IMG/VR virus record: IMGVR_UViG_3300010160_000148 | Location: 1-32,840 of that record | From: a virus | DNA: 32,840 nt | Direction: 5' to 3' (one strand) | In this document: one piece after another, positions 11,774 through 32,840 of the stretch | Numbering within the stretch: position 1 is the first letter of the stretch | Layout of the letters: each line of letters begins with the position of its first letter | The notes under the pieces: model-generated | Told to the model about the DNA's origin: nothing | Databases searched by the model: none | Seen by the model: only the letters and a program-made list of their open reading frames with translations | Translations under genes and position numbers: made by a program

Positions 11774-11788
11774 CCAACCAAATAGGAG
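11772..11788 (+). repeat. 17-nt direct repeat, copy 2 (contains ribosome site)
   Basis: Second identical copy of AACCAACCAAATAGGAG. Here it follows the 78-aa gene's stop (whose last bases it touches) and supplies the AGGAG ribosome site of the SSB-like gene. The base before the repeat differs between copies and the base after it changes T to C, so the exact match ends at 17 nt. Confidence 0.9.
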
Positions 11789-11795
11789 CAGTAAC

Positions 11796-13220: not shown

Positions 13221-13235
13221 CTCGAAAGGTCTCAC

Positions 13236-16112: not shown

Positions 16113-16290
16113 GGTGCATTACCCGTGGCAGAAGCTAGAACTTAAACAGAAGTTTTTTATACCAACATTGCGGTTAGAAGAAACAAAAAGTGAGGGGCTT
16201 AGCGCCGCCACTCACTACCGCATTATAGGTAAAGCCGAGTTTGGTACCGTACAAGGTAAGCTCGGTGTTTTGTTTACTCGCGTTCGCTAA
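16099..16290 (+). CDS. Hypothetical small protein at the convergence point (63 aa)
   Basis: The 63-aa basic protein (MKKIKVHYPWQKLELKQKFF; GLSAATHYRIIGKAEFG; a final GKLGVLFTRVR) looks like small phage proteins with the pattern 'G.FFVP.......GL..A....R..G.GVLF.R' that end replication blocks; its role is unknown. It overlaps the primase gene by 14 nt and its final 17 nt overlap the 3' end of the giant gene on the other strand. It is the last gene of the plus-strand block. Confidence 0.6.
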   Translation: MKKIKVHYPWQKLELKQKFFIPTLRLEETKSEGLSAATHYRIIGKAEFGTVQGKLGVLFTRVR

Positions 16291-19200
16291 GAAGTTCTTT
16301 AGATAGCTCGATTCTTTCTTTACGAACTTCATCAAGCTGACGGCGTTTATCAGGACCTGACAAGTTAGGGTCAGATTTAATCTCCCGCTCTTCTTTAGCA
16401 AGCTGACCCATTTTTTGTTTAAATTGACCAGCTAAAGGAGCAAGGCTTAACTCATCGGCAAAGCGGTCAGCGTAGGCACCTGCTTCTTTATCACGCCCTT
16501 CTTCTTCCAGCTTTTTATATGTCTGACCAGCACGGTTAATAGCTTCTATATCTTTATACGCACGGTTAATGAGACCACTAGCATCTTTAGATTGAAATAA
16601 AGAACCGATAACAGGCATTTCACTTGCACGAGCAGTTGGTTTTTCACCGGCAGCGCTACCAAATAACGGATTAGTCATAGAAGCAAGCGCCAAAGGCAAG
16701 CCACCTGTATAACCACGCACCATGTATTCAAGCTGAACAGGCGACAAGTATTCGCCCAAGAATGGAATTGAACCCGTGCCTTTACCAATAAACTTGGCAA
16801 GTTCGGTTGTATTAGAGTTAAATCGCTCAGAAGGATCAACACCAGCAAGACGATCGCCAACAATGCTGCGACCTGTGTAGAACGAGTAATCAGCAATAAT
16901 TTCAAGCGGTGCTTTTATAGCTTGTGGTATAGAAGTAGGACCAATCGGTATAGAGTTCTGAATCATTTTACTCAAGGCTTTTACCGCTTCTTTAGCAGTT
17001 TTATCGCCGCGCATTACGTTTACAATAGCTTCCGGTAACGCCTTGAACGGAATGCCCAATTCAAATGGAATAGGTACACGAACTGGCTCATCAATACCCG
17101 GTACATACACAAACCAATTGTTATAGCGCTCGTCGTCATTAGCGTTTTGGTAAGCCTCGTCCTCGCTCATTAATAGAGCGTAAGCCATAGACATACCGAA
17201 CATCAGCATGCCACGCTGCCATATTTTTTGTTTAATGCGTAGCTTATCTTGGAAAGTAGCTTTTCCTGTAAACGCGTTGTACAACACGTTCAGACCTTGA
17301 ATCTGTGCGTTCATGAACGGCACCATTGTAGATAGCAAAAACAAGCTAGACGAGGTACCACGCTGAGTAAATGGCATTGTTTCGTAAGTAGCCAACGCCG
17401 CTTCCATTTCAGATAAGCCTTGTTTACGGAAACTGTTAAATGCAACTTCACGAGTAGCAGCATCACCCTGTGCTGCTAAAGCATCTGCTTTAGCTAAATA
17501 CGATTCCCAACCACCCTTACCGCTAGTAATTTGGAGAAGAATTTTTTGCATGTCTTCTGATGTACCAGTAAACACGTTGCTGCTTACTAAACCTAAACGC
17601 TCAATCTCGCTAGTGCCAACCTCACCACGACGCATTCTGCCAATAGATTTACCCATTGCTTTAAGGGAAGTTAAAACAGGAATAGTGTTAACGCCGCTAG
17701 CCATAGTAGCTGTGAACGGATCACGAATAATCTGACGTGCAGCATAGACTGGACTTCTAGTTACCCATGACCGTAGAGTACGAGCAAAAAAGCCCATGCT
17801 CTTGACCAGCGATGGAACGCTCGTGTTAACGCCAGCTAAACCTTGAACCAAATACTCAGAAGGAATACCAGTAGATTCGGTGTTAACAATAACATGGCGG
17901 AAGCCGTCATCTTTATCATTAATTGGCTGCACGCTAAAACGAATTACTTTATCACTAGCTGGGCCTTTACCCGGACGTATTTTTATTCCTGATTCGCCTC
18001 TAGCATCTACCAAACCTAATTCAGCTAAAGTAAACGCGACGTTACGAGAGGCTAGATTGTGCAACGCCATATCAATCAACAGATTAGTGTTCTGCAACGC
18101 ACCGGTGTAGATGTCAACAATGCGCTCGTCACCACCAACTAATTCTTTTAAGTAAGGCTGATCTTTTAAGTTACCAATACGCACACGATCAGCGCCACCT
18201 AAATCAAGCATTACGTTACCGTTTTCTTCTGTACGGTAGAATGGCACGTAGTCATCATTCTTAACTAGGTCAATAGCTTTGTTTTTAGGGAGAGCGCCGG
18301 TTTGAACCAAAAAGTTCATTAGGTCACGGTTGTATTGGTCATATACCTTATCGGCTTCAGCAAAACCTCTACGTAGGGTTTCATTACCAGCAACAAGAGC
18401 ATCAACTTCCTTGAGCATCTTAGACATCTCTTGCGGGTTTTTAAAGTTTAATTTCTCTACGCCTACATTCTTAGCACGTTTACTAATACGATACAGGCTA
18501 TATGCGTTACGAATACCTTCTGCATTACCCCAACCAATCTTGCCTAAAATTTCAGCAAGTTTTTTTATGTTAGCGCCGGATTTAGACTCTACCACGAGCC
18601 CCTTACCGCCTTTTTCTTGGCGAACTACGGGAACACCGATAGTTAATGCATTGCCAGAAACAGTAAAACGCTGATTGTGTTGAGATATATAGTACTTAGC
18701 TTGATTAGCCAACAACGAGTTTTTCATGCCTTTAATTTCAAGCACTTTTTCAAAACTAGCTGAACCGGCTACCAACTTCTGTTTAAGGTACAAACCAATA
18801 TTTGGTGGGAACAAGCGGTCTTTTAACGGGGCTTGTTTAGCCATCATCATGTCGGCACCACGGGCAATTATTGCACCGCCCGGACCATAAGTAGCTTTAC
18901 CACCTTTTAATTGATACTCGCCATCACGCCCTTTATATATACCGGGGGCAATCTTTTCAGAATTGCGAGCATCCCGAAGCAACTTGTAAACGTCAGTTGT
19001 GTTGATGTCTAGGTCAATACCCATCTTACGCAAGGCAGCACGGAACGCACCAACCAAGGCTTTAATAAACTCATTGGCTTTCTGAATAAAGTTTTTATCA
19101 GGTCTAGCTTCAGCAGTATGTGCAATAACCTCACGTAGGGCTTTAGCTTGGGCAAACTCTTCAGACTTGCCAGCTTGTTTAGCAGCCGTGTAAGCGGCAA

Positions 19201-22200
19201 GAGCTTCTTCTCCAACACCTAATTTATCAGCTAGCTTAGCTACGCTACCGTTCTGAGCAATAACTTTCCTAGCCAGCGCATCCATACCGGCCTGCCCAAG
19301 AACGCCTTCAACACCCAAGTGACCTGTAATTTCGTGCGCTAGTGTGCGCTCTACGTCTTTAATATCAGCGTGGTTATTAGCCACAATAAAGACTGTGCCG
19401 TCAGGCATTACACCGCCACGAACACCATCAATCTCTGTATCTGTATAGCCGCCGTTTGCAATAGCGCCACGTAATGTAGGCGTTAGCTTTTCAAGAACAA
19501 TAACCTTGAGCCCTTTTGGTAGCTTAAGTTTGTCAACAACACGCTGTACAACGGATGAAGACACGCCTTCTCCAGTAATCGGCTTTTCAATACGTGGGTC
19601 CCAATCACCACGCATGCCTTCTTCCAAGCCTTTGAAATCGTCCATGCTGATCTTGGCATCTTCAATTTCATTAGTCCAAAAATCAAGACGCTGTTTTTCC
19701 GCTCTGCGGATAAATTTTGTAAACTCAGCTTCAGTAATACCAACAGCTTTATACCCTGCCTCTACAACAGCGTTTTCATCAAGCGCTTTCTTAAACTCTT
19801 TGGCAAGAATTTTTTCTTTTTCACGACCCTTAGCATTTTTAATACGCTCTGCTTGGTTTTTACCAGCAGTAGTTTTAGCAAACTTTTCTTCTTCGCTAAG
19901 CGGTTTTTGTAGTTTGTTTTCGTTTACCGCAACTCGTTGTTTGTACTCTGTAGCTTTTTCTTCTATATAACTTGCAGCGTTTCTGCCCAACGCTTCAGCG
20001 TTTGCAAGTATTTCTTTTTCAGCGTCAGTTAACTCGTCGCCGTGTTTATCTAAAAACTTTTTGTCCGCTTCTTTAAGTTTTGCTCCAGTAGCTTTTGTTT
20101 CAATTAAGTCTTGCTTTTTACGAAGCCTATTTACTTCATTATCTCGTTTGCTTTCAAACGTAGATTTTTTATACAACCTATCAGCCGCTTCACGTTTAAT
20201 CTGACCGCGGTTTCTAAGAACCTCAAAATCAGCGTTAGTAATAACATCAAGTTCTGCCTGTAGTGACTGCCTTGCAATACGAATTTTGTCGTTAGCTGCG
20301 TTAATAGTTCTCTTTTGAGCAGTTGTAGCGTCTTTAGGCGCTTTTTTAATTTCTTTTGCGTTAGCTGCATCAAGTTCTTTTTGAACTTCCTCTTGCCTTT
20401 TATTACGCTGTTTAGTAGTAATAACATTTTTACGGCGTTCAATAGCACGGCGGCTTTCTTCTGTCTGCTCAGCTTGAAGCGCTTTACGTTCTTCTTCAGC
20501 TTCAATAGAACCTTTTGGACCAACTTCTTTTTTAGCTCGGCGTACAATTCCCATACGAGCAGCATCCTCTTCAGACGCTCTACGGATAGTAGCAATGTCT
20601 TTAAGAATCGCTTTGCCTTCGGGGGATTCTGATTCTACTTTAGATAGCTGAATAAACAAATCGCCAAGTTCACCCGGTTTAGTGCCAAGGCTTTCATTTT
20701 CTGCATATTTACGCGTTTTAATAACTTCGTTAGCATACGCTTCTTTAGCTTTTTGTACAGCAGCAGCCCGTTCATTTTCGGACTTACCAATCTGTTTATC
20801 AGCGGCGTCAATGGCTTTAAACAATTTACGCATTACTGTAACTTTTTTACTTATGTTAATAAACGACAGGTTACTTAACACAGTTTGCGTTACAACCGCT
20901 TGAACTTTTTTACCGGGTAAACCAAGACCTACTTTTTGACGACCTTCTTGTTCGCTACGCTTAAGTATTTTGGATGTGCGCTCTCTATCACCGCCTACTT
21001 CTTCTGCACGAGCAGCACCAGCTTCAGCTTGTTTTTTAGCGTAATACTCACCACGAGCTTTTTGGTAAGTAATAGAAGCATCTAAATAATCTGCATTGTT
21101 TGCTTTAAGTTGATCAAAAAACTGTTTAAAGTCAGCATCTAGTTTTTGTTTGGCGGCGCTTTCGGCGGTAGCAATGGTTTCTTTTACTTGTTCAATTGCT
21201 TTATTAACGTCTGCAGTAGTATCTGCGCGCAGCTCATCGGCTTGTTTACGTAGCTTATCGGCTTTACGTCGCAGGCTCTTATTAATAAGAGTTTCACCCC
21301 TAGGTAATGGACCAACACTTAAAGAAGACGTAATCTCAGTATTAGCTTCTAGTTCAGCAGCAGCGGCTTCTTTTTCTTTTTTAGTGGCTTCAATTACTTT
21401 ATTAAAAAACGACGTTTTTTCTTCTTTGCCGCCAGCAATATCCCGCATAAAATCAAGAGCGGTTTGTTTTTGTTTGTTAAAGTCATCAAGAATAGCTTTG
21501 GATTTGCGTACTTCTACAGGGGTAAAAATACGTAGGGCTTCGCCCAAACCACGCAAAATACCACGGGTAGATTCTAAAAAGTCATTGGCAATATTGCGTA
21601 GCTTGGACAGTTCTTTTGGCTCGCCATCAATCTCGGGCATGCTTTCAGCGGTAATCTCTGGGGCTTCAACAAGTGGAGCACGCTCAGAACCAAACGACTG
21701 TTTAAGTTTATCAAGAGTATCCCTAATGTCGATACGCTCTTGTTCACGCATACCGGTGCGAATCTCGCCTTTACCTTCTTTTTCGCCACGCACAAACTCG
21801 GCTTTAGCAGCGTCGTATTCTTTATTGGCTTCTTTAATAGAAGTGGTTAAACGGTCGATCTGTTTTTTGTAAGTAGAAATAACGCTTCTATCGCTGGCAG
21901 TATTGATCTTGTCTTCAAGATCGTTCTTTTTATCAATCAGCGTATCTAGGTTATTGCGAATCTGTTCAATTTGCTTGTTGGCTTCGCCGTAGTTTGTAAC
22001 AATATCTTCGTCTGTTAAACCAGACTTACCAATAGCTTCAACGTATTGTTCGTAGGCAGTCTTGTCACCAAAGTTAAAGCCGGCATCTTTAAAGGCTTTA
22101 GATATAGCGGTTTCTTCTGCAGTCTCAGGGGCCCGTTGCAGTTCAGCACGCCAACCAGTAGCTCTAGCAGCTTTACTTAACAACAACTGCTCAACAACAG

Positions 22201-25200
22201 TGGCAAATTCTTCTTGCTCTTGGCGAGTCATGTCCTCTTCTTTACGGCTACGACGACCAATATTAATATCAGAAATAGCCGCCATAATAAGCGTATCTAC
22301 ATCGTTGCGAATACCACGTAAGATTAACGGACGAGACTGACCTTCAAGAGTAGTTTCGGTAGCAGCAGCGCCACCCATAAACTCGCCTTTGCGAAGCTGG
22401 TCAATGGCATCTTGAATTTCAGTAAGAGCTGTGCCTTCTTTAGCAGCACCAACAACACGTTCACCTTTAGCTCCACCTTCTGGTAAGCGTGAGGTTTTCT
22501 TAACTTTAGCTAGCTTAGCGTTTGCATTAGCAATACGGGTTTGTAAGCGCTTAATTTCGCTAGGAGCAGTTGCTTCTTTAAGTTGGCCCTCAAGAGTCTC
22601 AATATCAGACTCAATGCGCAAGTATTTAGGTACTTTGCCTTTTGCCCGTAACGGAAGTGTAGCGTCAAGAATTTCGTTCTCAAGACGCGCTTTACGTTTC
22701 TCGAGTCTATCTAAAAAGTCTTTTTGCGCTGGATTTTTTAAAGCGCTATGGGATTTCTTAGCAATATTTAATTTTGCAATTCTGTCTTTTGCCCAATATA
22801 CATCTTTTTCAGAAGACTCTTTGTTATCAACAATGGCTTGTTGCGCTTTTATGTTTGCGTCAATTTCTGCAAGCGCTTTCTTTTTAATACCAGCTAAATC
22901 AAACCCTTCTGATACACTTACTTTTTCATTATCAATGCGCTTCTTTTCTGCTTCAGCAGTAGTAATTGATTTTTGCGCAGCTTTTTTATCGACTTCAGAT
23001 GCTGTTTTACGAGCAATGGTTGCTTTTGCTTTTTTAATTGTGCGGTTTAAACGGGCTTTTTCAGCTTTTTTATCTGCTTCGTTTTGTTCGTCGTAACCAA
23101 GCAATCTGTTAATTTCAGCTAGTTCAGCCCTAACTTTTGCTATATGCGTTGGTGTGTATTCGCCAACTGGCAAGTCAGGTTTAAATAGCTTTTGCGCTGC
23201 AGGAATTTCAGCTTGACGATAACGTAACTCTCTACGGCTTTCTACTTTAGATTTGGGTAGCGTGCCCGGCTCAACAGCAGCATTTTCACTTAACTTTTCA
23301 AACAACTGTTCTAAATAAGGGGTGCGTGGATCAGCAGGCAAATCCATCTTATTCTGCTCTGCAGTGGCGCGATCTCTTTCAATCTCGTCAAGTTTATCTG
23401 CAACTTCTTTGCGTAGAATTGCTGCTTCTTGTGGGTCGCTAAACGACCACTTGCCGTTTTTACCAGCGCTTGTTGTTAAGCCAAGGAGTTTTGCAGAAGT
23501 GTTATATAGATTACCTTTGTCAATTTCTTCAGCCACTTTCTGGACTGTATCCATTTCACCAAAAGCTCTTTGCCGTTCGCTTGCTGCAGCCCCTAAACCA
23601 GCAAGGCGGTTGTTGGTCATTTCATTAGCTCTGAGTTCGTACTCAGCCATATCAATTGGCTCGCTAATTTCTTCTTCGCTAAGTATTTCAAACTTGCCAG
23701 TCTTTTTGTTGTACTTAACTGGGCCTTGCAGGCGCTCTTCTTGTTTCTGCGCTAGTGCTTGGCTGGCTGCGGTTTCTTCTTTGCGCTGAGATACTTGTGT
23801 GTTTAACTCGTCTATTTTAGTCTGCGCATCTTTAATAGACTGAATAAGTTCTTTACGTTTATCTGAAGTTAAGTTAGCGTCTTCACTAGCTACTGCTAGT
23901 TGGTTTTGCGCTTTCTTTAAGGCGCTGTTGGCACTCTTTAACTGTGCTTCAGGAGTACGTACGTTTATACCAGCACGTTGTGCAATCTCGGATAGCTGTT
24001 GCAGTTCAGCGCTTTTCTTATCAAGTAAGTCCCCAAAAGTTTCAGCTTGTTGGATGTTGCTATTTTTCATAGCGTCTTGCAGTTTTGTTTGCAAGTAGTC
24101 TACTGTGCTAGCTAAGCCTTGATGTTCTTTAATAAAGCCTTGCGAATCTTCTTTAACCTTTTGAGCCTGCTCGTTTTTAGCAGATTCCTGTTCTTCTTGA
24201 GCTTTTCTTTCAGCAATAGCTTGGTCAATACTAAACGCCTGCGTTTCTTCGGCTGGAGCGCCAGCAGTTTTTAACTCGCCAACAAGACCTTTGAGCTGGG
24301 CTTGAAGGTCTTTAATTTCTTTCTTGCCTTCATCAACCGCTTCTTTATCTAGGCGGGGGTCTTTAAGAACAGACTGGATCTGAGTAATGCGCCCTTGTAT
24401 GTCGTTGCGTTGGGTTTCAAGTTCTGCACGGTATTCTGGAGTTTGTTTGCGTGCTTCTTCTGCAGCGGATGTTGCTTCATCGCGTTTTGTTTGTTCTTTT
24501 AAAAGAACATCTTTAGCTTCACCACGTTTACCAGCAACACCAAACGGAGAGGCAATACCACCTAATACAGCGCCACCAACAAAACTTTCAAGGTACTCTT
24601 TACGGGCTTGTTCGTCAGCAATGTTTAAGCCAGCTTGTAAACGTTCAAAAAACTGTTGCCCTGCTTCTGTAGCGCCTTCAATACCAGCAATCTTTGCGCC
24701 ACCAGCAATGTAATGCCCAGCAGTTTTTACTGTGCCTGCTTCAATAATTTTTTTAGCCGCTTGTTCTGAAAGCTCAACACCAGCAGACTTAAATATTTTT
24801 TGTACGCCCGGCAAATACCTAAAACCAACTACGTCTAACGCAGCTTGCGGGATAGCGGCTGCAACTGCTTTGCCTAGGCTAGCTTCTTGTAATGATTGCC
24901 CTTCTTGTAGATCACGAGATAGGTTTGATCCTGTGAATTGTAGACCAGACGCTAAACCGGCAAGACCTGCACCTGCCGCAATTGGAGCGCCACCTAAAGC
25001 AGCCGCACCACCAACTGCAATAGGAGCCGCCATATACGGTAACGAACCACCCAGTAACTCACGGGCTTTTAAAAATGGCGCTTCAGACCAACTTTCTTTA
25101 GTTGGTTTGTAAATACGCGCGGCTTCGGCTTGACGTTCTTTTTGGTACTTTTCGGCTTCGCCTATGTCCATTAAACCAGTTTTACCGGCTACAGCAGCAA

Positions 25201-25378
25201 GGTCGCCTTTTAATGTTTGGTAGCTTGCTTTAGCGGCGCCAGTTAACCCAGTATCGGGTTTTTCAGCTGGCTGGTATAAGTCTTTGTATTTTTCTTGAGC
25301 GTGCGCCAATGCCTCGCGTTGTGATACCCCTTCGGGCACATCCATGTAGGAACCATCGGGTAAACGCAAATATGGCAT
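16274..25378 (-). CDS. Giant internal virion/ejection-type protein with peptidase-like and LPD38-like regions
   Basis: The 3034-aa protein is by far the largest in the window. The opening LPDGSYMDVPEGVSQREAL (6-24) is a motif of phage internal virion proteins. A hydrophobic Ala/Gly segment (about 112-148) is followed by FTGSNLSRDLQEGQSL (148-163). Charged, mostly coiled-coil sequence fills about 285-1900. A peptidase-like region contains LAHEITGHLGVEG, with H2015-E2016 and H2020 (HExxGH). Near 2340-2370 is the YNRDLMNFL...YVPFYR pattern of large polyvalent proteins, and from about 2685 an LPD38-like C-terminus with a hydrophobic segment near 2725. It is the last gene of the virion block, the place of T7 gp16, so it likely enters the host with the DNA. 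No strong ribosome site precedes its ATG (AAAAAGTAAAACTT). No RNA polymerase motif was found. Confidence 0.82.
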   Translation of the reverse strand: MPYLRLPDGSYMDVPEGVSQREALAHAQEKYKDLYQPAEKPDTGLTGAAKASYQTLKGDLAAVAGKTGLMDIGEAEKYQKERQAEAARIYKPTKESWSEAPFLKARELLGGSLPYMAAPIAVGGAAALGGAPIAAGAGLAGLASGLQFTGSNLSRDLQEGQSLQEASLGKAVAAAIPQAALDVVGFRYLPGVQKIFKSAGVELSEQAAKKIIEAGTVKTAGHYIAGGAKIAGIEGATEAGQQFFERLQAGLNIADEQARKEYLESFVGGAVLGGIASPFGVAGKRGEAKDVLLKEQTKRDEATSAAEEARKQTPEYRAELETQRNDIQGRITQIQSVLKDPRLDKEAVDEGKKEIKDLQAQLKGLVGELKTAGAPAEETQAFSIDQAIAERKAQEEQESAKNEQAQKVKEDSQGFIKEHQGLASTVDYLQTKLQDAMKNSNIQQAETFGDLLDKKSAELQQLSEIAQRAGINVRTPEAQLKSANSALKKAQNQLAVASEDANLTSDKRKELIQSIKDAQTKIDELNTQVSQRKEETAASQALAQKQEERLQGPVKYNKKTGKFEILSEEEISEPIDMAEYELRANEMTNNRLAGLGAAASERQRAFGEMDTVQKVAEEIDKGNLYNTSAKLLGLTTSAGKNGKWSFSDPQEAAILRKEVADKLDEIERDRATAEQNKMDLPADPRTPYLEQLFEKLSENAAVEPGTLPKSKVESRRELRYRQAEIPAAQKLFKPDLPVGEYTPTHIAKVRAELAEINRLLGYDEQNEADKKAEKARLNRTIKKAKATIARKTASEVDKKAAQKSITTAEAEKKRIDNEKVSVSEGFDLAGIKKKALAEIDANIKAQQAIVDNKESSEKDVYWAKDRIAKLNIAKKSHSALKNPAQKDFLDRLEKRKARLENEILDATLPLRAKGKVPKYLRIESDIETLEGQLKEATAPSEIKRLQTRIANANAKLAKVKKTSRLPEGGAKGERVVGAAKEGTALTEIQDAIDQLRKGEFMGGAAATETTLEGQSRPLILRGIRNDVDTLIMAAISDINIGRRSRKEEDMTRQEQEEFATVVEQLLLSKAARATGWRAELQRAPETAEETAISKAFKDAGFNFGDKTAYEQYVEAIGKSGLTDEDIVTNYGEANKQIEQIRNNLDTLIDKKNDLEDKINTASDRSVISTYKKQIDRLTTSIKEANKEYDAAKAEFVRGEKEGKGEIRTGMREQERIDIRDTLDKLKQSFGSERAPLVEAPEITAESMPEIDGEPKELSKLRNIANDFLESTRGILRGLGEALRIFTPVEVRKSKAILDDFNKQKQTALDFMRDIAGGKEEKTSFFNKVIEATKKEKEAAAAELEANTEITSSLSVGPLPRGETLINKSLRRKADKLRKQADELRADTTADVNKAIEQVKETIATAESAAKQKLDADFKQFFDQLKANNADYLDASITYQKARGEYYAKKQAEAGAARAEEVGGDRERTSKILKRSEQEGRQKVGLGLPGKKVQAVVTQTVLSNLSFINISKKVTVMRKLFKAIDAADKQIGKSENERAAAVQKAKEAYANEVIKTRKYAENESLGTKPGELGDLFIQLSKVESESPEGKAILKDIATIRRASEEDAARMGIVRRAKKEVGPKGSIEAEEERKALQAEQTEESRRAIERRKNVITTKQRNKRQEEVQKELDAANAKEIKKAPKDATTAQKRTINAANDKIRIARQSLQAELDVITNADFEVLRNRGQIKREAADRLYKKSTFESKRDNEVNRLRKKQDLIETKATGAKLKEADKKFLDKHGDELTDAEKEILANAEALGRNAASYIEEKATEYKQRVAVNENKLQKPLSEEEKFAKTTAGKNQAERIKNAKGREKEKILAKEFKKALDENAVVEAGYKAVGITEAEFTKFIRRAEKQRLDFWTNEIEDAKISMDDFKGLEEGMRGDWDPRIEKPITGEGVSSSVVQRVVDKLKLPKGLKVIVLEKLTPTLRGAIANGGYTDTEIDGVRGGVMPDGTVFIVANNHADIKDVERTLAHEITGHLGVEGVLGQAGMDALARKVIAQNGSVAKLADKLGVGEEALAAYTAAKQAGKSEEFAQAKALREVIAHTAEARPDKNFIQKANEFIKALVGAFRAALRKMGIDLDINTTDVYKLLRDARNSEKIAPGIYKGRDGEYQLKGGKATYGPGGAIIARGADMMMAKQAPLKDRLFPPNIGLYLKQKLVAGSASFEKVLEIKGMKNSLLANQAKYYISQHNQRFTVSGNALTIGVPVVRQEKGGKGLVVESKSGANIKKLAEILGKIGWGNAEGIRNAYSLYRISKRAKNVGVEKLNFKNPQEMSKMLKEVDALVAGNETLRRGFAEADKVYDQYNRDLMNFLVQTGALPKNKAIDLVKNDDYVPFYRTEENGNVMLDLGGADRVRIGNLKDQPYLKELVGGDERIVDIYTGALQNTNLLIDMALHNLASRNVAFTLAELGLVDARGESGIKIRPGKGPASDKVIRFSVQPINDKDDGFRHVIVNTESTGIPSEYLVQGLAGVNTSVPSLVKSMGFFARTLRSWVTRSPVYAARQIIRDPFTATMASGVNTIPVLTSLKAMGKSIGRMRRGEVGTSEIERLGLVSSNVFTGTSEDMQKILLQITSGKGGWESYLAKADALAAQGDAATREVAFNSFRKQGLSEMEAALATYETMPFTQRGTSSSLFLLSTMVPFMNAQIQGLNVLYNAFTGKATFQDKLRIKQKIWQRGMLMFGMSMAYALLMSEDEAYQNANDDERYNNWFVYVPGIDEPVRVPIPFELGIPFKALPEAIVNVMRGDKTAKEAVKALSKMIQNSIPIGPTSIPQAIKAPLEIIADYSFYTGRSIVGDRLAGVDPSERFNSNTTELAKFIGKGTGSIPFLGEYLSPVQLEYMVRGYTGGLPLALASMTNPLFGSAAGEKPTARASEMPVIGSLFQSKDASGLINRAYKDIEAINRAGQTYKKLEEEGRDKEAGAYADRFADELSLAPLAGQFKQKMGQLAKEEREIKSDPNLSGPDKRRQLDEVRKERIELSKELLSERE

Positions 25379-25408
25379 AAGTTTTACTTTTTAAACTAGT
25401 AGGCGGGT

Positions 25409-26983
25409 CTAGTATGGTCTTGTTTGTGCGCCCTGTCCCGGAATTGTAGCAGAAAGCAGCGAACCATTTACATATCTGTAGTAGTCTTGCTCGCTATTAA
25501 TACCCATACTTTGCAATTCTTTATAGTACTTTCTGTTATCTTTTGGCATGTCATTCCATTGCTTAGCCGCATCAGTCAACGACATCTGGTTTGTTTTGCC
25601 TGTTTTGCCGTATAAAGCTTCAAGTTGCGGATTACCTGCAATACCTTTTAAAGTACGTAATGCTTCTGGTTCTTGATTAAGCGTAGCAGCTCTAAGTGAA
25701 AGGTCTTGTTTTCTATATGCGGCTTCGTCGTGTAATCTCTTAAACATAAGAGCGGATTCCATATCACCTCTAGAAGCAGCTTCTTGAGCTTTAGCAAGGT
25801 TAAAATCCATTTCATTAGCGCTTTGTTCAACAGCACGTTGTTCTTTACGAGACGCTGCCGCTGTTTTAGCAACTGCAGAAGCCCCTTGACCCGCTGCCAT
25901 AGCCATATTAGGGTTGCTAAACAAAGCGCTAGCTATGTTTAAAAGAGCTTCGCCACCACCTTGGCTTTTTAATTGGGCAAGACCTTCACGTTGTTTAGCG
26001 CCCATACCTTCTAGTTTGGATAAGAAACCGTCTCTGTTTTTCTTAACCATATCCATGTAGCTAGCAAACTCATCAGTACCGCCAATACCAGCTTTAGTTT
26101 TGTCAGGACCGGGAGCATTTAACGCTGTTCCAACAGCTTTTCTAGCAGGCATTGTTACATCAGGAGCAGCTGCCGCTCCTGTGCCGGGCAACGCAGGAGA
26201 ACCTTCTGGAAAAACGCCTTTATTTGTAGCAAGCGCAGTCAGTTGGTCTGGCGTCATGGCAGCGGTTTTAGCGGTTGTTGCAACGTCATCTTTTCTTGCA
26301 GCGCGTGTACGTTGACTTGGCGTAAATATAAAATCTTTAATCCCAGCATTACGTTTTTCTTCTTCTGCTTGATTTTCAGCAATAATACGGCGTAGCTTTT
26401 GAGACTCACTTTCTTCTTTAGAAGGAACGTAATTTGGATCTGTCGGCATAGAAACGTATTGCAACGGATTAACTAGACTAGAATATTCACCATTAAAACG
26501 TGGTACTTCTCCGCCCTCATCAAACGCAACAATACCACCGCTAGCCATGTCCATAGAGTCCATGTTAGGAGCAGGCAAATCAGCAATACCACCATCGGAA
26601 TACATTAACCCACCTTGTGCAGCCATCATAGGCTGTTGGGGCATACCTTGTGGCATCTGTGGTTGGTCGCCCATCAACAACTTTTCTTTAACGCTAGGTT
26701 GTTGAGCTTGCGCCATAGCCTGTTGACCACTCATAGCAGTACGCAACTGTTTACGACCCATAGCTTCAGTCATTGCAACGTATTGTGGAACGTCAAGACT
26801 CTTACCTTGGAGTACTTCAGCCAACTGCCCATCGCTCATTTTGCGGGCTAGTGCCATAACCTGAGCCATATTGCCTGATGAAATGCCTTTAGGAGCCGTA
26901 GCTGGTTGTGCAATAGCGGCTAATCCTGCTTGAGGAGCGGTTGCCATGCCTTTCGGTGCTGCCATACCCATAGATGGTGTCAT
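25409..26983 (-). CDS. Internal virion-type protein with DGG motifs (524 aa)
   Basis: The 524-aa protein has a Met/Gln/Ala-rich N-terminal 120 residues, then two related motifs AQGGLMYSDGG (122-132) and ASGGIVAFDEGG (147-158) followed by EVPRFNGEYSS. The rest is polar with helices typical of structural core proteins, including FLSKLEGMGAKQREGLAQLK and MAMAAGQGASAVAKTAAASR. It lies between the Gln-rich protein and the giant protein, the position of T7 gene 15 (inference from order, not from sequence). A ribosome site AAGGA lies 6 nt before the ATG. It stops 30 nt before the giant gene. Confidence 0.75.
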   Translation of the reverse strand: MTPSMGMAAPKGMATAPQAGLAAIAQPATAPKGISSGNMAQVMALARKMSDGQLAEVLQGKSLDVPQYVAMTEAMGRKQLRTAMSGQQAMAQAQQPSVKEKLLMGDQPQMPQGMPQQPMMAAQGGLMYSDGGIADLPAPNMDSMDMASGGIVAFDEGGEVPRFNGEYSSLVNPLQYVSMPTDPNYVPSKEESESQKLRRIIAENQAEEEKRNAGIKDFIFTPSQRTRAARKDDVATTAKTAAMTPDQLTALATNKGVFPEGSPALPGTGAAAAPDVTMPARKAVGTALNAPGPDKTKAGIGGTDEFASYMDMVKKNRDGFLSKLEGMGAKQREGLAQLKSQGGGEALLNIASALFSNPNMAMAAGQGASAVAKTAAASRKEQRAVEQSANEMDFNLAKAQEAASRGDMESALMFKRLHDEAAYRKQDLSLRAATLNQEPEALRTLKGIAGNPQLEALYGKTGKTNQMSLTDAAKQWNDMPKDNRKYYKELQSMGINSEQDYYRYVNGSLLSATIPGQGAQTRPY

Positions 26984-26992
26984 ATTTATTCC

Positions 26993-28027
26993 TTAACCAA
27001 ACGCTTTGTACGCGCCCAAGGCGCCAAGGCCATAGCCTAAAAGTTGCTGACCTGTACTAGGTTGCGCTTGATACATTTGTGTTGTTGAAGACTGTAATGG
27101 TAAACCCCTAAGCATAGAGTTCATAATACCAAGCTGCATGTATGGATACTGTTGTGCAGTAGCGTAATCTTGAATAGACTGATTAATCTTCTGTTGTTCT
27201 TGCGCTTGCTGTTGAGCGCCCGCTTGAGATTGCGTATTTAAAATATTTGTCTGCGCACCAAGTTGTTGTGTACCTAATTGACCTAAATTAGCACCTGCAG
27301 CATTAGCTTGCCCCAAACCTTGTAATGCTGCGCCGTAACCTTGCATATTTAAGTTAGCACCAAACTGTTGTTGCTGTTGTGCATTTTGGAATGCGTTTTG
27401 TGAACCTGTAGCTTCAATACCTTGTAGCTGACTATTTAAACTACGTTGAGCTTCAGAATTTACAATAGCTTGACGGCTACCGCCAAAAGCACCTGAACCA
27501 ACAGCTTGCTGGTTACGCATACCTTGCCCAATCCCATAGTCACGTAGTGCTTGACTCTTTTGATAGTCAACTACGTTTTGCATATATGGCGACATATAGC
27601 CTTGCATAGAACGTGGGTCTTGCGCTTGTTGTGCGTATTGTTGCCCTGCACCAGCTGCTTGTCCTGCAATACCTAAAGAACCTAAACCTGAAATACCTGA
27701 CAAACTACTACCTGCAGCATACTGGTCAGGAGTTGTTAAATTAGCAGCGCCAGCTTGAGATTGTTGTTGTAACGGAGAAAACCCTGCTACATAATCGTTA
27801 GGATTTGAACTATATGGTTGGTATGGCCTAAACGACGTCATGTCGTCGTTATAAATTTGCGACTGTGTAGACGCAAGCATGTTTTCCACATACGGACGTG
27901 CGTATTCTGGGACGTTGGTATTAACAGTAGTGCTTTGTGTAGGTTGAGAGCTACCACCACCAGAAGAACCTCCGTAGAACATAAACTGATCTACAAACCA
28001 CCACTTCAACATTTTTAATATATTCAT
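26993..28027 (-). CDS. Gln/Ala/Gly-rich internal virion protein (344 aa)
   Basis: The 344-aa protein carries MSPYMQNVVDYQKSQALRDY (145-164) and GAFGGSRQAIVNSEAQRSL (179-197), a signature seen in phage internal or DNA-transfer proteins. The middle is a Gln-rich helical stretch (about 200-310), and the end is a short hydrophobic GLGALGAYKAFG. The position between the GNAT-like and 524-aa proteins is that of T7 gene 14. The ATG forms an ATGA overlap with the GNAT-like gene and has AGAGG 8 nt upstream. A second ATG 15 codons in (MFYGGSSGGG) is possible. The first residues (ILKMLKWWFVDQF) are amphipathic and could touch membrane. Confidence 0.75.
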   Translation of the reverse strand: MNILKMLKWWFVDQFMFYGGSSGGGSSQPTQSTTVNTNVPEYARPYVENMLASTQSQIYNDDMTSFRPYQPYSSNPNDYVAGFSPLQQQSQAGAANLTTPDQYAAGSSLSGISGLGSLGIAGQAAGAGQQYAQQAQDPRSMQGYMSPYMQNVVDYQKSQALRDYGIGQGMRNQQAVGSGAFGGSRQAIVNSEAQRSLNSQLQGIEATGSQNAFQNAQQQQQFGANLNMQGYGAALQGLGQANAAGANLGQLGTQQLGAQTNILNTQSQAGAQQQAQEQQKINQSIQDYATAQQYPYMQLGIMNSMLRGLPLQSSTTQMYQAQPSTGQQLLGYGLGALGAYKAFG

Positions 28028-28437
28028 ATTTTTGCCTCTACAATTCTGTAGCGTTCTTTAAACCCGTATCTAGTCCACAACCGTGCAATAGATTCTCTTG
28101 CGGCACCCTGTATTTTAGTGGCGCCTTGTGCTTTAAGTAAAGCTGTAAACTGCGCATAAGTGTCTTGATTACTAATTAATTTACCGCCAATAGCTACTAC
28201 AAACGCAACTCTGTCGTTAGGCATATTATTAAAATTAATTGCCGCCGCACCGTGAATTGTATTTTCTTCATCTACTGCAACTACCAAAAGCCATTGCCCG
28301 TTAGCTAGCATTACTTTAGCTTGTTCAGCGGTGTAATCATCTTCACCCCATTTTAACGCTTCAGCTAAAAACTCTTTAACCAAAGGCCATGCTTGGTGAA
28401 ATGCTGCAGTAAAGACGGGTTGAATAGTTAAATTCAA
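28024..28437 (-). CDS. GNAT-like protein, T7 gp13-like position (137 aa)
   Basis: The 137-aa protein has a GNAT acetyltransferase-type layout: helices WPLVKEFLAEALKW, beta strands WLLVVAVDEENTIHGAAAINF, then VAFVVAIGG, and the final segment IQGAARESIARLWTRYGFKE (113-132), where 'RYGF' is the usual GNAT end. T7 gp13, an internal virion protein of nearly the same length and also GNAT-like, sits at the matching place in its virion block. The only in-frame start is TTG at 28437, directly after the TAA of the upstream gene and in the same frame, with no good ribosome site, so translation probably depends on the upstream gene. Acetyltransferase activity is doubtful in such virion forms. Confidence 0.75.
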   Translation of the reverse strand: MNLTIQPVFTAAFHQAWPLVKEFLAEALKWGEDDYTAEQAKVMLANGQWLLVVAVDEENTIHGAAAINFNNMPNDRVAFVVAIGGKLISNQDTYAQFTALLKAQGATKIQGAARESIARLWTRYGFKERYRIVEAKI

Positions 28438-28926
28438 TTAACCAGTCCATCCAGACCAAGATGGGCCGTTATCTGTTGCTGGTGCTGGGTGTTCTGCATC
28501 CCATTTAGCTTGCGCTTCTGCTGCCTGTTGCTGTTGTAGCCTTACACTGGGTACTACGTTATTTAAATTCTGATTAATTGCTGCCATATTTGGTCTGTAA
28601 TTAGAACCAACGTAAGGGGCTAATGGTGCTAGTTGTTGCAACCCGCTTTGATAAGGAGCGCTTTGCTGTTGCATGCCAAACATACTTTGTAAACTAGGTA
28701 AGCCAAGACTTGTGGTTTGCGGGGTCTGCCCACTATGCTGAGCCATAATGTTTTGCAAAAACGGTGTAGCTGTTTGAGGGGTGTATTGGGATGCGTATCT
28801 ATTAGCCATTGCTTCAGGAGAAGCGGACGCAGGAGCAGTATATGCCACACCGGGTTTACCAGAACCATATTGTGGACTTACTGAACCGCCTCCACCACCT
28901 CCGCCCCCACCAAGCATTCCACCCAT
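28438..28926 (-). CDS. Gly/Gln/Pro-rich structural protein (162 aa)
   Basis: The 162-aa protein opens with a run of nine glycines (6-14) and continues low-complexity (SPQYGSGKPGVAYTAPASAS; then Gln-rich MQQQSAPYQSGLQQL), with a basic helix SVRLQQQQAAEAQAKWDAEH near the end. No enzyme motif is visible, and it is probably part of the virion. It shares one base with the preceding gene (TAATG). Its TAA is followed in frame, without any gap, by the TTG of the GNAT-like gene. Confidence 0.65.
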   Translation of the reverse strand: MGGMLGGGGGGGGGSVSPQYGSGKPGVAYTAPASASPEAMANRYASQYTPQTATPFLQNIMAQHSGQTPQTTSLGLPSLQSMFGMQQQSAPYQSGLQQLAPLAPYVGSNYRPNMAAINQNLNNVVPSVRLQQQQAAEAQAKWDAEHPAPATDNGPSWSGWTG

Positions 28927-30419
28927 TAGACTGGTACTCCACTTTTAAAGTTAACAGACGGCGCTTGTTTCTTTTTACCTGTACGAGCAGTACGAACTTT
29001 ATCCATCATGGCATAAAGGCGCTTTGCGCCTGCATCAGTAGACCCATTACCAAGATGAGAAACAACATCAGCAGGTACCACAAACTCGCCATCTGCCAAG
29101 CGCGCAGGTTGCTTACGACCAATTTGAGCTGGGATATTATCTGACATGCCATCGCCGGGACCTTTTAATAAACGACCACCATCTGAGTAACCACCTAAGT
29201 CTGCAAGACCACCCCGAGCACCAGCAACGGCATTAGCAGGTAAGTCGCCCAAAGTCATACCTGAACGTAATGGAGATGTGCCAGTCATATTAGCGCCATA
29301 ACGAGCGTTATTAAGCATAGCCAACCCAGCTTGGTCTGCACTCATAGCAGCCATAGTTCTATCAGCAGTTAAATTAGCACGTTGTTTTTTCTTAGCGGGA
29401 TCACCACCACCAGATAGCGCCATTAAACCACCATCAGCAGCGTAACGTGTGTATTGAGCTTGATAGTATGGTTTAGGTTGAGGTGGGGTATACCCTTGAA
29501 AATTAGGAGAAAGAGTTACTGCGCTGCCAGCAGGATCTTCTGTAGTGTTGTTGACCCCCGCAACTGTATTCATGCCAATATCAGCTCCAATACCCGGAAG
29601 AACTTGAGTCATAGCCTTACCCGGCGTACTCATAGTACTGTAATAACTTGGGGGAACTGCTTTATTATCTTCAACAGATGGTGTTGGAACGGAAGGGTTG
29701 TTAACTAGTTTTTGTAAAAAATTTTGTTGTGGGGGCGGTGCTTTATACGCATCACCAAATTCATTTAATTTATAACCTTCTGGAACAGTGTTTGTTGAAC
29801 CTTGTCCAGAATAAGGAAGGTTAGCTACTTGGTCTGCTGGAATAGATGCACTAGGAACTTGCGGCATTCCGGGTCCAGCCACTTGTTTAATAGTGTCTGT
29901 AGCTTGCGCACCTTGGTTTACAGAATCGACTACTTGGCCTGTTTGTGCAGTTGTTTTAGCCGCTTCACCAGCAACATCTCCAGCACCGCCATAAGCACCC
30001 ATACCACCCGATATAGCGCCACCAAGACCACCATAAAGAGCGCCTTGACCTACGTCTTTACCTTGCGCTGCAGCACCAATAGCGCCAACACCCGCACCAG
30101 CTCCAGCACCAGCCATTGCACCACCAACAGTAGCAGCAGTGCCCACAGCCATGCCTTCAGCGGCAAGAGCAGCACTAAGAGCAGGGGCAGCAGCACCAGC
30201 CGTAAAGTAAGTAGCCGCAGCCATAGCTACGATAGGAAGAATTTGTTCTAAGAACCCTGCTTCTGGCAACCCTGTTTCTGGGTTAATTGTTAAGCTACCG
30301 CCATGCGCTTTAGCAAGCGCCTGTAACCCCTGTACCTCTTTTGGGGTCATATGGACAAGCATCTGGTCTTTACCACGTCCTTTTTGTTGAACGTGTTTAG
30401 CTAGGGTGTGTAAGCTCAT
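28926..30419 (-). CDS. Gly/Ala-rich virion-associated protein with DGEFVVPADVV motif (497 aa)
   Basis: The 497-aa protein begins LAKHVQQKGRGKDQMLVHM (6-24), then LTINPETGLPEAGFLEQILP (43-62), a pattern I recognise from other phage virion proteins. A long hydrophobic Ala/Gly region (63-145) could insert in membrane. A linker follows, then AADGGLMALSGGG (327-339), ARGGLADLGGYSDGGRLLKG (401-420) and PARLADGEFVVPADVVSHLG (438-457). The tail is basic (RTARTGKKKQ). The 'DGM..IPA.......LADGEFV' segment recurs in many phage tail-block proteins. It shares DGG motifs with the 524-aa protein. Spacing to the jelly-roll gene is 37 nt; AAGG lies 8 nt before the ATG. Confidence 0.75.
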   Translation of the reverse strand: MSLHTLAKHVQQKGRGKDQMLVHMTPKEVQGLQALAKAHGGSLTINPETGLPEAGFLEQILPIVAMAAATYFTAGAAAPALSAALAAEGMAVGTAATVGGAMAGAGAGAGVGAIGAAAQGKDVGQGALYGGLGGAISGGMGAYGGAGDVAGEAAKTTAQTGQVVDSVNQGAQATDTIKQVAGPGMPQVPSASIPADQVANLPYSGQGSTNTVPEGYKLNEFGDAYKAPPPQQNFLQKLVNNPSVPTPSVEDNKAVPPSYYSTMSTPGKAMTQVLPGIGADIGMNTVAGVNNTTEDPAGSAVTLSPNFQGYTPPQPKPYYQAQYTRYAADGGLMALSGGGDPAKKKQRANLTADRTMAAMSADQAGLAMLNNARYGANMTGTSPLRSGMTLGDLPANAVAGARGGLADLGGYSDGGRLLKGPGDGMSDNIPAQIGRKQPARLADGEFVVPADVVSHLGNGSTDAGAKRLYAMMDKVRTARTGKKKQAPSVNFKSGVPV

Positions 30420-30456
30420 AAGCGTACCTTGAGGTTATTTGGTGTCAAGTTTAACA

Positions 30457-31131
30457 TTAATATAGCGCCGATACAAAGGACATTGTGGCTACTACCGATT
30501 GGGTTGACGGCTTTGTAGGGCTTGCGCTGGCAGGATAGTATGGAATGGTTACGTTAGTTCCATCTGTGGTAGACCAGTAAATCTGGATATAATCCCCAGC
30601 AGCCATAGAAACAAAGTAATTCCAGCCCTTAATATCGTGAAAAGGATCTCCGGGATTTTTTCTTGCTGGCATACCAACTTTGCCTGTAGAACCTGTAATA
30701 TCAGCTAAAGTGGCTGTTGCAGCAGTGTATTGTTTAAGCCAAATATATACATCTTGTGGGGCATTAGAAAGGTTTTGTAACTGTACACTAAACTGTATGT
30801 TGTAAAGACCGGGGTAATCAGGGGTAATTCTAGAACTACTTACGATAGAAAACCCGTTGGTAAAATCGGTAGTATTAAAAGTTAAAGCTGTAGCAGTATT
30901 AGATGCAGCAGACTGGGTTACGCCGCTAGAAAACGCACCATATGGGAAAGTAACCGAGCCACCGCCAGAACCGTTTAAAAGACTTGCACCAAAGTTATCA
31001 ATCTGGTTAAAGTACAAACGAAGCACGTTTGAATACTGGTCAAAGTATCCAGCGTTATACCCAGCTAATGGAGCATTAGGTAAGTTTGGCGCTTTTGAAG
31101 GGCGGATTGGTGCAGATCTATTAAGTGCCAT
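30457..31131 (-). CDS. C1q/TNF-like jelly-roll virion protein (224 aa)
   Basis: The 224-aa protein has an N-terminal attachment part (YFDQYSNVLRLYFNQIDNF, about 29-47) and a beta-rich C-terminal domain. The latter shows SRITPDYPGLYNIQFSVQLQ, DVYIWLKQ, NYFVSMAAGDYIQIYWSTTD and the final VVATMSFVSALY, the strand order of C1q/TNF-like jelly rolls. Such proteins decorate phage heads or tails and can bind the host surface. The ATG shares a base with the beta-propeller gene (TAATG). The fold call is from pattern; its place on the particle is inference. Confidence 0.75.
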   Translation of the reverse strand: MALNRSAPIRPSKAPNLPNAPLAGYNAGYFDQYSNVLRLYFNQIDNFGASLLNGSGGGSVTFPYGAFSSGVTQSAASNTATALTFNTTDFTNGFSIVSSSRITPDYPGLYNIQFSVQLQNLSNAPQDVYIWLKQYTAATATLADITGSTGKVGMPARKNPGDPFHDIKGWNYFVSMAAGDYIQIYWSTTDGTNVTIPYYPASASPTKPSTQSVVATMSFVSALY

Positions 31132-32840
31132 TATCTGCGTCCGTCTGGTCTTATATCAATCCGTGGATAACCCATCTGCCAAGCAACCCCTAGTTCATTA
31201 GACTCAATTCTAAACGCCATTTGTCTGCCTCTAATACGGGTGTAAACTTGCCCAGTAAATTGTTGAACAGCATAAGTACGTTGATTAGCGTAACTTTGAG
31301 CACTTACTACCGCTTGTGGGTCAGGGTTTCCATAAGACGTTCCTGAGTTAACTCTTGGTATTACGGTCATATTAACTTGTGGTATACCCGATGTAGAGCC
31401 GTTAAACGTTAAGTCAGGCAGTATGCGCCACACAAACCCAAAGTTATGCCCCTCTCCAATATCAAAATCAGATGACTGAATATAAGACACAATCGGCACC
31501 GCAGTTAGTCCTGATACATCGTCAGTGCCGTTCTCGTGGTAAAGGATTCTAAAGTTGTCGGTATCGGCACCCATTGGGTATTGGCGTAGTCCAGAATCTA
31601 ACCAAGCAGTGCGGCTCATAGTTCCATAAGACCATACATCATCTAAATAATCGTAAATAACATAGCGGTCAACAATATCACTATTAGCAGAGCAATAGAA
31701 CCACCAAATCTCGTTGTAGCCTTCAATAGACCCAGCAAATACTTGGAAGTTCTGGTTTTGATTAATGTCTTGGTAAACGTATTGACGCAACGAACAAGAC
31801 AATGTTTCTACACGACCCGTGTATCTATAAAACTTATCAGTACCCATCCAATAGGTTACGTTATTAACTGTAATAGAAGCGTTGGGACCCATAATAGATA
31901 TGTTGTCTTGTAATAACTGGAAGCCCCAAACATAAGGAGGCCCTAAATATTGCATAGAATAAACAGCCGAATCTGACCAAACAATTATCTCTTGACGAGT
32001 TGAACGAGCACAAACAATATAGGAACCAATATTAAGGCGATATTCGCCAGACTGGTTTGTTACTGCGGGTACCCATTCATAAGGGTTTTCTTGGTCGGAC
32101 CAACGTACTAATAGCGGGTCAAATGGAGTATCAGCATCTGTAGGGTCATAAGGATTAGCGCCCATTGCAATAACAAAGCGTTGAATTGCCGACCCAATAA
32201 TTTGGTTAGTTGTGTTAGGTACAAACTGACCTTGATACCCTAAAGATGTAGAAAGCGTATTTAACAGAACTGCTCTTACACTGACGCCAGTTGTTGCTGA
32301 CCAGTAATAGATACCACCACCACGAGGGGCAATAATTAAATCTTGACCAAAATTATCGTTAGTCCATAAACGCAACTGGGAACCAATACCCACATCTGCT
32401 GCAGACCCCCAAGGACGAATACCGTATTCTGGATAAGCAGTAACAGTAGTCCCACCACCTACAGAACCATACAAAGCAGTTACAGAAGCTGTGCCCGTAC
32501 CAGAACCCGGACCTGTAGCAACAAAAGATACGCCGACTGTATTTGACGCCGCCCCAATAGCTGTAAAGCTTGTAGTTCCTACAGAAGTAATAATGTATGT
32601 AAGCCCTGTACTAAAAGACCCTGCATTGGCATCAGGTAGCGTAATCGTGTAGCTATTAGCGTCTACGTAAGTAATTTCAAAAGTTTTATTTAGCACTGTA
32701 GCAGGCACAGCGGCATCAATCCCAACACCATATACTCCATAACTGCCTGTACCAAACCCAACTGTGCCAGAAAAACCATATACAGAAGGTGTTGCTATTA
32801 AATCTGTTGCTCCAGAAAAAGCTACCCAAACAATAGAAGC
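31131..32840 (-). CDS. Beta-propeller tail nozzle/DNA-stabilisation-type protein (5' truncated by window edge)
   Basis: The frame is open to the right edge, so the start lies outside; 569 residues are visible. A GTG at 32706-32708 is only an internal codon. The protein is full of short beta strands with repeats around Trp/Tyr: WSDQENPYEW, EIIVWSDSAVYSM, YVWGFQLLQDN, WMGTDKFYRYTG, EIWWFYCSANS. This is the pattern of the beta-propeller shared by P22 gp10 and T7 gp12 nozzle proteins. It forms the lower tail tube of podoviruses. A Gly/Thr-rich module at 32487-32612 seems inserted near its start. The gene leads the visible virion block and is coupled to the jelly-roll gene. Confidence 0.8.
   Translation of the reverse strand, partial: ASIVWVAFSGATDLIATPSVYGFSGTVGFGTGSYGVYGVGIDAAVPATVLNKTFEITYVDANSYTITLPDANAGSFSTGLTYIITSVGTTSFTAIGAASNTVGVSFVATGPGSGTGTASVTALYGSVGGGTTVTAYPEYGIRPWGSAADVGIGSQLRLWTNDNFGQDLIIAPRGGGIYYWSATTGVSVRAVLLNTLSTSLGYQGQFVPNTTNQIIGSAIQRFVIAMGANPYDPTDADTPFDPLLVRWSDQENPYEWVPAVTNQSGEYRLNIGSYIVCARSTRQEIIVWSDSAVYSMQYLGPPYVWGFQLLQDNISIMGPNASITVNNVTYWMGTDKFYRYTGRVETLSCSLRQYVYQDINQNQNFQVFAGSIEGYNEIWWFYCSANSDIVDRYVIYDYLDDVWSYGTMSRTAWLDSGLRQYPMGADTDNFRILYHENGTDDVSGLTAVPIVSYIQSSDFDIGEGHNFGFVWRILPDLTFNGSTSGIPQVNMTVIPRVNSGTSYGNPDPQAVVSAQSYANQRTYAVQQFTGQVYTRIRGRQMAFRIESNELGVAWQMGYPRIDIRPDGRR

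Follow-up and report, generated by a model that had tools for sequence, protein, structure and literature searches.

Described phages with comparable gene cassettes

Phage large polyvalent proteins with LPD38 were reportedly recognized by Iyer et al. in 2017. In the Burkholderia phage JC1 (Bcep22-like, Lessievirus) the gene order is nozzle gp61 - hypothetical - N-acetyltransferase gp63 - gp64 - ... - gp67 - gp68 - gp69, and gp61, gp64, gp67, gp68 and the 4515-aa gp69 were detected in CsCl-purified virions (PMC9144972). The gp50 protein of phage N4 is built of an N-terminal ejection part, a cargo, a C1 region with HExxH and a helical C2 region (PMC12633501). In StenR_269 a Cys-free protein of 2270 aa has been put forward as a virion RNA polymerase (vRNAP). 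For giant vRNAPs, a connection has been drawn between the lack of cysteine and the route through the tail and the oxidising periplasm (PMC3715699); for N4-type vRNAPs the Cys-free signature is already known.

Organization of the cassette

The DNA analysed here is a 32,840-nucleotide stretch of IMG/VR record IMGVR_UViG_3300010160_000148 (hereafter the window). It is a fragment, and eight relatives of 46-68 kb were used for genome-level tests. Among cultured phages, HTVC027P and HTVC023P are the nearest to it by TerL. As the preliminary description had stated, its minus strand carries, in order of transcription, open reading frames for a nozzle-type protein and for products of 224, 497, 162, 137, 344, 524 and 3034 aa. 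The larger ones are real genes, because relatives with the same order exist in IMG/VR for each. The recurring order across IMG/VR loci is nozzle - (tail gene) - 497 - (162) - GNAT - 344 - 524 - giant, and cassette order and content are shared by about 100 IMG/VR loci and by isolates of several podovirus lineages. Very probably this block encodes the ejection proteins of an uncultured podovirus; its 497-, 344-, 524- and 3034-aa products would be packaged and then ejected.

The first gene (31131..32840, minus strand) is 5′-truncated by the contig end. Among solved structures, its product matched the nozzles 9nwi_Y (E=7e-23), 8zkk and 8zkm (both E ~1e-9); it also matched phrog_3287 (E=7.6e-53), a virion structural protein, and in tblastn 'stabilization protein' genes of Bruynoghevirus, DSL-LC04 and pelagiphages. 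The nozzle reading was thus confirmed, and by these matches the protein is of the P22 gp10/LUZ24 type. The 224-aa protein (30457..31131, minus strand) is probably tail-associated, judging from its position and its relatives, in which this slot is variable (homologues of 69-466 aa). Few relatives have a counterpart of the 162-aa Gly-rich, Cys-free protein (28438..28926, minus strand).

The GNAT fold ascribed to the 137-aa protein (28024..28437, minus strand) was confirmed by an AlphaFold2 model (pLDDT 92.2) and by Foldseek and VIA structure matches. The best Foldseek match had E=6e-8, and among the matches listed all 50 of 50 PDB entries were acetyltransferases (GNATs); against Tetrahymena GCN5, VIA gave a Z of 12.1 and an rmsd of 2.9 over 125 aligned residues. 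The predicted fold places the protein in the GNAT superfamily.

Proteins of 497, 344 and 524 amino acids

The Cys-free 497-aa protein (28926..30419, minus strand) has a Gly/Ala-rich hydrophobic stretch at residues 60-118, and 53% of its family have a TM-like segment (median position 60). The TM-like segment that a gp14-type pore should have sits in this protein, which the preliminary description had left out of its T7 mapping; it is a candidate outer-membrane pore. Homologues occur in the cassettes of DSL-LC04, HTVC027P and Pag-Yong1.

The Gln-rich 344-aa protein (26993..28027, minus strand) belongs to a family found in more than 590 IMG/VR stretches and matches phrog_4287 'DNA ejection protein' (E=2.2e-13). 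The corresponding gene measures 640-1020 aa in 45 relatives, of which 32 have a collinear 524 profile in its C-terminal half; in about half of the relatives 344 and 524 are a single fused gene. The 344-aa protein would accordingly represent the N-terminal part and the 524-aa protein (25409..26983, minus strand) the C-terminal part of the fused form. We regard both as putative ejection proteins, the 344-aa one from its phrog_4287 match, the fusion and the cysteine census below, and the 524-aa one, a candidate component of a periplasmic tunnel, from the census, the fusion and an SLT lytic transglycosylase domain in two members of its slot (L058 and L109). A move of the hydrolase domain from gp16 to gp15-type proteins has been described (PMC8954989), and the SLT domain in this slot agrees with it. 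The tblastn search of the 344-aa protein against phage isolates gave no match, and the alignments of 344, 524, N-module and C-module, searched as profiles against the PDB, gave none or chance matches only. Compared by profile with proven ejection proteins, the 344, 524, 497 and N-module families showed no homology, the phrog_4287 label excepted.

Modules of the 3034-aa protein

The giant (16274..25378, minus strand) consists of two conserved modules around a variable middle. The N-module (residues 1-330; 24389..25378, minus strand) has hydrophobic Ala/Gly-rich segments and, in an alignment of 32 sequences, conserved E-x-x-T-E-x-x-Q and QAG motifs; according to our module map it is found in other giants lacking the C-module. 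A tblastn search of the first 793 residues against phage isolates gave no match. The middle (residues 331-1900; 19679..24388, minus strand) has no recognised domain, 27-45% charged residues, low Gly/Pro and helical periodicity (z=5.3 at 3.6 residues, z=3.6 at 3.5). Periodicity and charge fit long helices, but do not prove the very long coiled coil described before. The middle is conserved in close relatives only and is replaced by unrelated sequence in others.

The C-module (about residues 1990-3034) contains HEITGH (residues 2015-2020; 19319..19336, minus strand), a putative zincin metallopeptidase motif in which H2015, E2016 and H2020 are kept in at least 90% of aligned relatives, and LPD38 (Pfam PF18857; residues 2740-2924; 16607..17161, minus strand; E=1.8e-29, 103.6 bits vs. 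a curated cut-off of 27). The unusual extra domains expected of this protein are therefore present, yet both were already recognised ones. The C-module model was poor (pLDDT 61), and Foldseek found no match to it below E=1.5. N and C modules recombine among the giants of relatives, and a syntenic relative (L092) carries methylase/helicase domains in the same slot. Judged by its domain content, the protein is a 'large polyvalent protein' with LPD38 and a zincin motif, an already-known kind of injected protein; module map, C-module homology and lack of cysteine suggest that it is probably ejected.

Profile comparisons, proposed as a check in the preliminary description, left T7 gp13-gp16 unmatched but connected the C-module with JC1 gp69 (hhalign 99.7%, E=1.9e-25) and with HTVC034P gp44 (100%, E=6.5e-42), which occupies the gp16 position. 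The HTVC034P order is tubular B - acetyltransferase - IVP B-like (gp46) - 580 aa - 1229 aa with the C-module. JC1 gp69 likewise has HExxH (HEAFH, 3465, in hhalign register with HEITGH, as is HELVH, 2228, of N4), LPD38 (E=8e-34) and no Cys, and closes a cassette that runs from nozzle through GNAT and virion proteins to the giant; it is the one homologue known from virions, by mass spectrometry. It differs in its 'DarB-like' annotation and 1.5 times greater length, whereas the helical middle of our protein has no recognised enzyme domains, and the remaining JC1 cassette proteins have no profile-recognisable kinship to those of the window. In Planktothrix phage Pag-Yong1, UMO75972 is also a Cys-free giant with a C-module including the LPD38 region, and nozzle, 497-type and 344-type genes are in common with the window; its middle, however, has no recognisable kinship, and the N-module profile was unmatched in it.

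Cysteine census

Cysteine was nearly absent from the giant (2 in 132,707 aa), 344 (4 in 52,384), 524 (0 in 12,892) and 497 (2 in 38,916) families, together 8 in about 237,000 residues, and the giant of the window has none. The neighbours differ, with 0.67% in the nozzle family (the nozzle of the window contains Cys), 0.47% in the GNAT family and 1.1-2.4% in early genes. No Cys was found in T7 gp15/16, P22 gp7/20/16, N4 gp50/51/52 or JC1 gp64/67/68/69. In the T7, P22, N4 and JC1 cassettes this signature tells ejected proteins apart, with few exceptions, from neighbours that are not ejected, and may thus reveal ejected proteins beyond sequence similarity. N4 gp56 and gp57 lie outside the N4 ejection cassette, yet are also Cys-free, and low Cys could come partly from unusual composition. 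As a compositional indication, the near-absence of Cys lends independent support to ejection of the 497-, 344-, 524- and 3034-aa proteins.

Comparison with T7 and alternative assignments

The block had been described as following the T7 gene order 12-13-14-15-16 with a gp16 equivalent more than twice T7 size. The size ratio is correct (3034 vs. 1318 aa, 2.3 times), and nozzle, GNAT-type, small, medium and largest protein follow one another, with rising sizes and Cys-free large proteins as in T7. However, three genes between nozzle and GNAT are absent in T7, and a similar order is found also in P22, N4 and Bcep22-like phages, so that order is not T7-specific. A true but divergent T7 ejectosome, in which the GNAT, 344-, 524- and 3034-aa proteins were gp13, gp14, gp15 and gp16 with extra domains, is unlikely, even though order, relative sizes and GNAT fold agree, the gp16 slot of HTVC034P, whose gp46 carries an internal-virion-protein-B-like annotation, is taken by an LPD38 protein, and gp15/gp16-type proteins diverge past easy sequence recognition (review PMC8954989). 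As the earlier remark that sequence likeness is not evident had anticipated, hhalign gave less than 2% for every pair of block proteins with T7 gp11-gp16. A search for T7-type single-subunit RNA polymerase that recognised T7 itself as positive control (E=1e-109) found none in the eight relatives or the window. The nozzle is of the P22/LUZ24 type, and a Pfam search found in the giant no counterpart of the N-terminal SLT domain of gp16. These results speak against a specific T7 relationship. The equation of 344 with gp14 and 524 with gp15 is doubtful, as the two are one gene in many relatives and the TM-like segment lies in 497. The giant can be called a gp16 equivalent by its place in the last slot and by its probable function as an ejected protein, not by demonstrated homology. 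Profile searches likewise gave no match of GNAT, 344, 524, 497, N- or C-module to T7 gp11-gp16 or P22 gp7/14/20/16.

It is very improbable that the giant acts as a virion RNA polymerase of the N4 gp50 kind, although it shares with gp50 size, lack of Cys, the last place in a small-medium-giant cassette (gp52-gp51-gp50 in N4) and a plan of N-part, cargo, HExxH and helical C-terminal part, in which the zincin precedes the helical region (PMC12633501, PMC10747016). Compared with an N4 RNAP profile of 12 sequences, the middle-region profile reached 0.1% and so did not match, a comparison that a divergent domain could escape, and this middle is charge-rich, low in Gly/Pro and swapped for unrelated sequence in relatives. 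The C-terminal regions align weakly (2%), with HExxH in register. Since PF00940 fails to see N4 gp50 itself, the search with it is uninformative on a vRNAP in the giant. Equally improbable is that the giant builds or measures a long tail and is not an ejected effector. The long helical region, the position downstream of tail genes and the tape measure annotation of the DSL-LC04 497-type homologue would fit such a role; against it stand the P22/LUZ24-type nozzle and the C-module relatives in podoviruses (Bacillus phage Page, with a portal annotated podovirus-type, and C1-morphotype JC1).

Proposed mechanism

Ejection from a podovirus head is consistent with C-module homology to giants at the corresponding position in further podovirus cassettes (one such giant was detected in virions), with the exchange of N, middle and C parts as modules, and with near-total Cys absence. 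The head would be loaded with the 497-, 344-, 524- and 3034-aa proteins, and these would exit via the nozzle ahead of or together with the DNA, at least partly unfolded during passage. We infer that 497 may insert into the outer membrane as a pore, and that 344 and 524 may form a periplasmic conduit, sometimes with a murein hydrolase domain. The giant would leave last. By analogy with N4, from which the module roles are transferred, its N-module may dock to the conduit or inner membrane, the C-module (zincin and LPD38 helical region) may serve packaging, its metallopeptidase processing the giant itself or a host protein, and the helical middle may be spacer or cargo.

A broader joint reading, which we consider less likely than not, takes the last ejection protein of this lineage as a general delivery chassis, the Cys purge as a general marker and the helical middle as part of the conduit. 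If true, exchangeable N- and C-modules would surround swappable cargo (methylase-helicase in some relatives, the helical region here), the purge of Cys from every channel-passing protein would be a sequence-only marker of ejected podovirus proteins, and the middle would be a structural part of a trans-envelope conduit rather than an enzyme. The natural yet too specific T7 analogy is corrected by these results, which place an abundant uncultured phage lineage among phages injecting giant polyvalent proteins.

The window also resembles P22 in order (gp10, gp26, gp14, gp7, gp20, gp16) and nozzle type. P22 gp16 differs in its 609 aa and in having no LPD38 match, but the N-terminus of the giant aligned with it over 24 columns at 1.5% probability, a lead only, with a similar short starting motif, NGKTFNFPDGTS against LPDGSYMDVPEGVS.

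Late block and its relatives

The IMG/VR record is linear (32,840 bases), with early and replication genes (HNH endonucleases, DNA polymerase, exonuclease, helicase and primase) at 1-16,112 on the plus strand and a convergent late block on the minus strand, where the contig end cuts the nozzle gene. The genes of this block, their sizes and order are all as the preliminary description gave them. We gathered relatives through two queries: the C-terminal third of the giant 3034-aa protein, which gave 30 loci, and the 344-aa protein, for which the best 80 of more than 590 stretches were used. These relatives keep the convergence, the giant facing a 949-958-aa primase, and show a recurrent order of nozzle, variable tail gene, 497, (162), GNAT, 344, 524 and giant (numbers are lengths in aa in the window); GNAT immediately precedes 344 in 69 of 85 distinct cases. 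A contig of another metagenome (L032:1-8611) has up to 100% protein identity over most of the block, so at least two samplings have caught this virus or a near-identical one. Outside the block, a pair of neighbouring HNH endonuclease-type genes occupies the left end (2-1323, plus), and a small protein in the early block, beside the primase (12706-13071, plus), weakly matched a terminase-small-subunit profile (E=0.0015).

The giant is a modular, probably injected polyvalent protein

The giant (16274-25378, minus) is probably an injected polyvalent protein, a known kind, within a podoviral ejection cassette. HMM mapping revealed conserved N- (residues 1-330) and C-modules (1990-3034), and a middle with conservation confined to close relatives. 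Pfam places LPD38 at 2740-2924 (E=1.8e-29). At the start of the C-module lies HEITGH (2015), a motif that relatives share and that lines up with the HExxH of Burkholderia phage JC1 gp69 and of N4 gp50, the virion RNA polymerase (vRNAP; overall N4 alignment weak, 2%). The module matched gp44 of phage HTVC034P (100%, E=6.5e-42) and JC1 gp69 (99.7%, E=1.9e-25); profile comparison gave no match to T7 gp16 or P22 gp16.

The two modules recombine. Of the pair, several relatives' giants bear the N-module alone and others the C-module alone; the two scanned giants of the former type (loci L047 and L103) carry a C-terminal DarB-like region (phrog_10089). In a syntenic relative (L092:12185-20941) the same slot holds a giant whose N6-methylase and strawberry-notch/SNF2-type helicase domains make up a DarB-like antirestriction cargo, and which has an 80-aa stretch in common with JC1 gp69 (60% identity). 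Last-slot proteins of pelagiphage HTVC027P (1342 aa) and metagenomic phage DSL-LC04 (1068 aa) are Cys-free and lack the C-module; giant size is thus not universal in the wider group.

JC1 has a similar order (nozzle, hypothetical, N-acetyltransferase, gp64, two genes, gp67, gp68, gp69), and its CsCl-purified virions contained gp61, gp64, gp67, gp68 and gp69 (PMC9144972). Giant ejection proteins of short-tailed phages reach 5007 aa in Pavtok (PMC8402733). According to a proposal of Iyer et al., polyvalent proteins of this kind are injected along with DNA; the authors cite N4 gp50, whose encapsidation needs its zincin-bearing C-terminal region (PMC5512222).

Relationship to T7

The order of the block had been likened to that of T7 gp12-gp16. 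A specific T7 relationship is not supported: late-block profiles did not match T7 gp11-gp16, no T7-type RNAP occurred in eight relatives (the T7 positive control was detected), the nozzle is of P22/LUZ24 type, and tail-fibre and lysis genes lie upstream of it, where T7 has gp8-gp11. Terminase, portal and capsid genes are located elsewhere. By TerL, the closest isolates are pelagiphages HTVC027P and HTVC023P, alongside DSL-LC04. The proposed equivalence of the giant to gp16 holds for position and predicted function and was not shown by homology.

For the 137-aa GNAT protein the fold was confirmed; specific kinship with T7 gp13 was not upheld by profile comparison. Its AlphaFold2 model (pLDDT 92) gave acetyltransferases or annotated relatives in all 50 listed Foldseek matches in the PDB (best E=6e-8), and VIA aligned it with Tetrahymena GCN5 (Z 12.1, rmsd 2.9, 125 residues). 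Matched predicted viral structures included GNAT proteins of other podoviruses.

Cysteine depletion

In the window, the giant, 524, 344, GNAT, 162, 497 and a 224-aa protein have no Cys; the minus block has three, all in the nozzle, vs. 79 expected at the plus-strand rate. Across relatives we counted 2 Cys in 132,707 residues of giants, 4 in 52,384 (344 family), 0 in 12,892 (524) and 2 in 38,916 (497), vs. 267 in 39,654 for nozzles, 37 in 7,959 for GNAT and 1.1-2.4% for early proteins. Large ORFs in the slot just after 344, including 22 without detected similarity, held 12 in 171,859. T7 gp15/16, P22 gp7/20/16, N4 gp50/51/52 and JC1 gp64/67/68/69 are Cys-free, T7 gp14 has one, and nozzle and GNAT-slot neighbours have several; the pattern recurs in DSL-LC04, HTVC027P, Pag-Yong1, a Vibrio phage and PTXU04. 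Some other virion proteins, e.g. N4 gp56 and gp57, are also Cys-free. Earlier work noted the absence of Cys in N4-type vRNAPs and attributed it to their route through the tail and the periplasm (PMC3715699, PMC2784036). A Cys-free 2270-aa late protein of StenR_269 was assigned as a putative vRNAP solely on its size, helical content and lack of Cys (PMC10747016); as LPD38 polyvalent proteins share these traits, that assignment is worth re-testing.

Fusion and putative roles of 344, 524 and 497

In 45 relatives the 344 gene encodes 640-1020 aa, usually with the giant directly next, and in 32 of these 45 long proteins the C-terminal half matches the 524 profile, so 344 and 524 form a single protein in much of the lineage. 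A Gly/Ala-rich TM-like segment is present in 497; none was found in 344 or 524. We suggest that 497 may form an outer-membrane pore and 344+524 a periplasmic conduit, and that the giant, as the last protein, would act at the inner membrane or in the cytoplasm. Two 524-slot proteins (L058:9702-11678 and L109:2941-4872, related loci) contain an SLT lytic transglycosylase domain; that of L058 shares 34% identity with the N-terminal domain (12-115) of T7 gp16. Its presence in this slot fits the SLT domain swap already described between gp16- and gp15-type proteins (PMC8954989).
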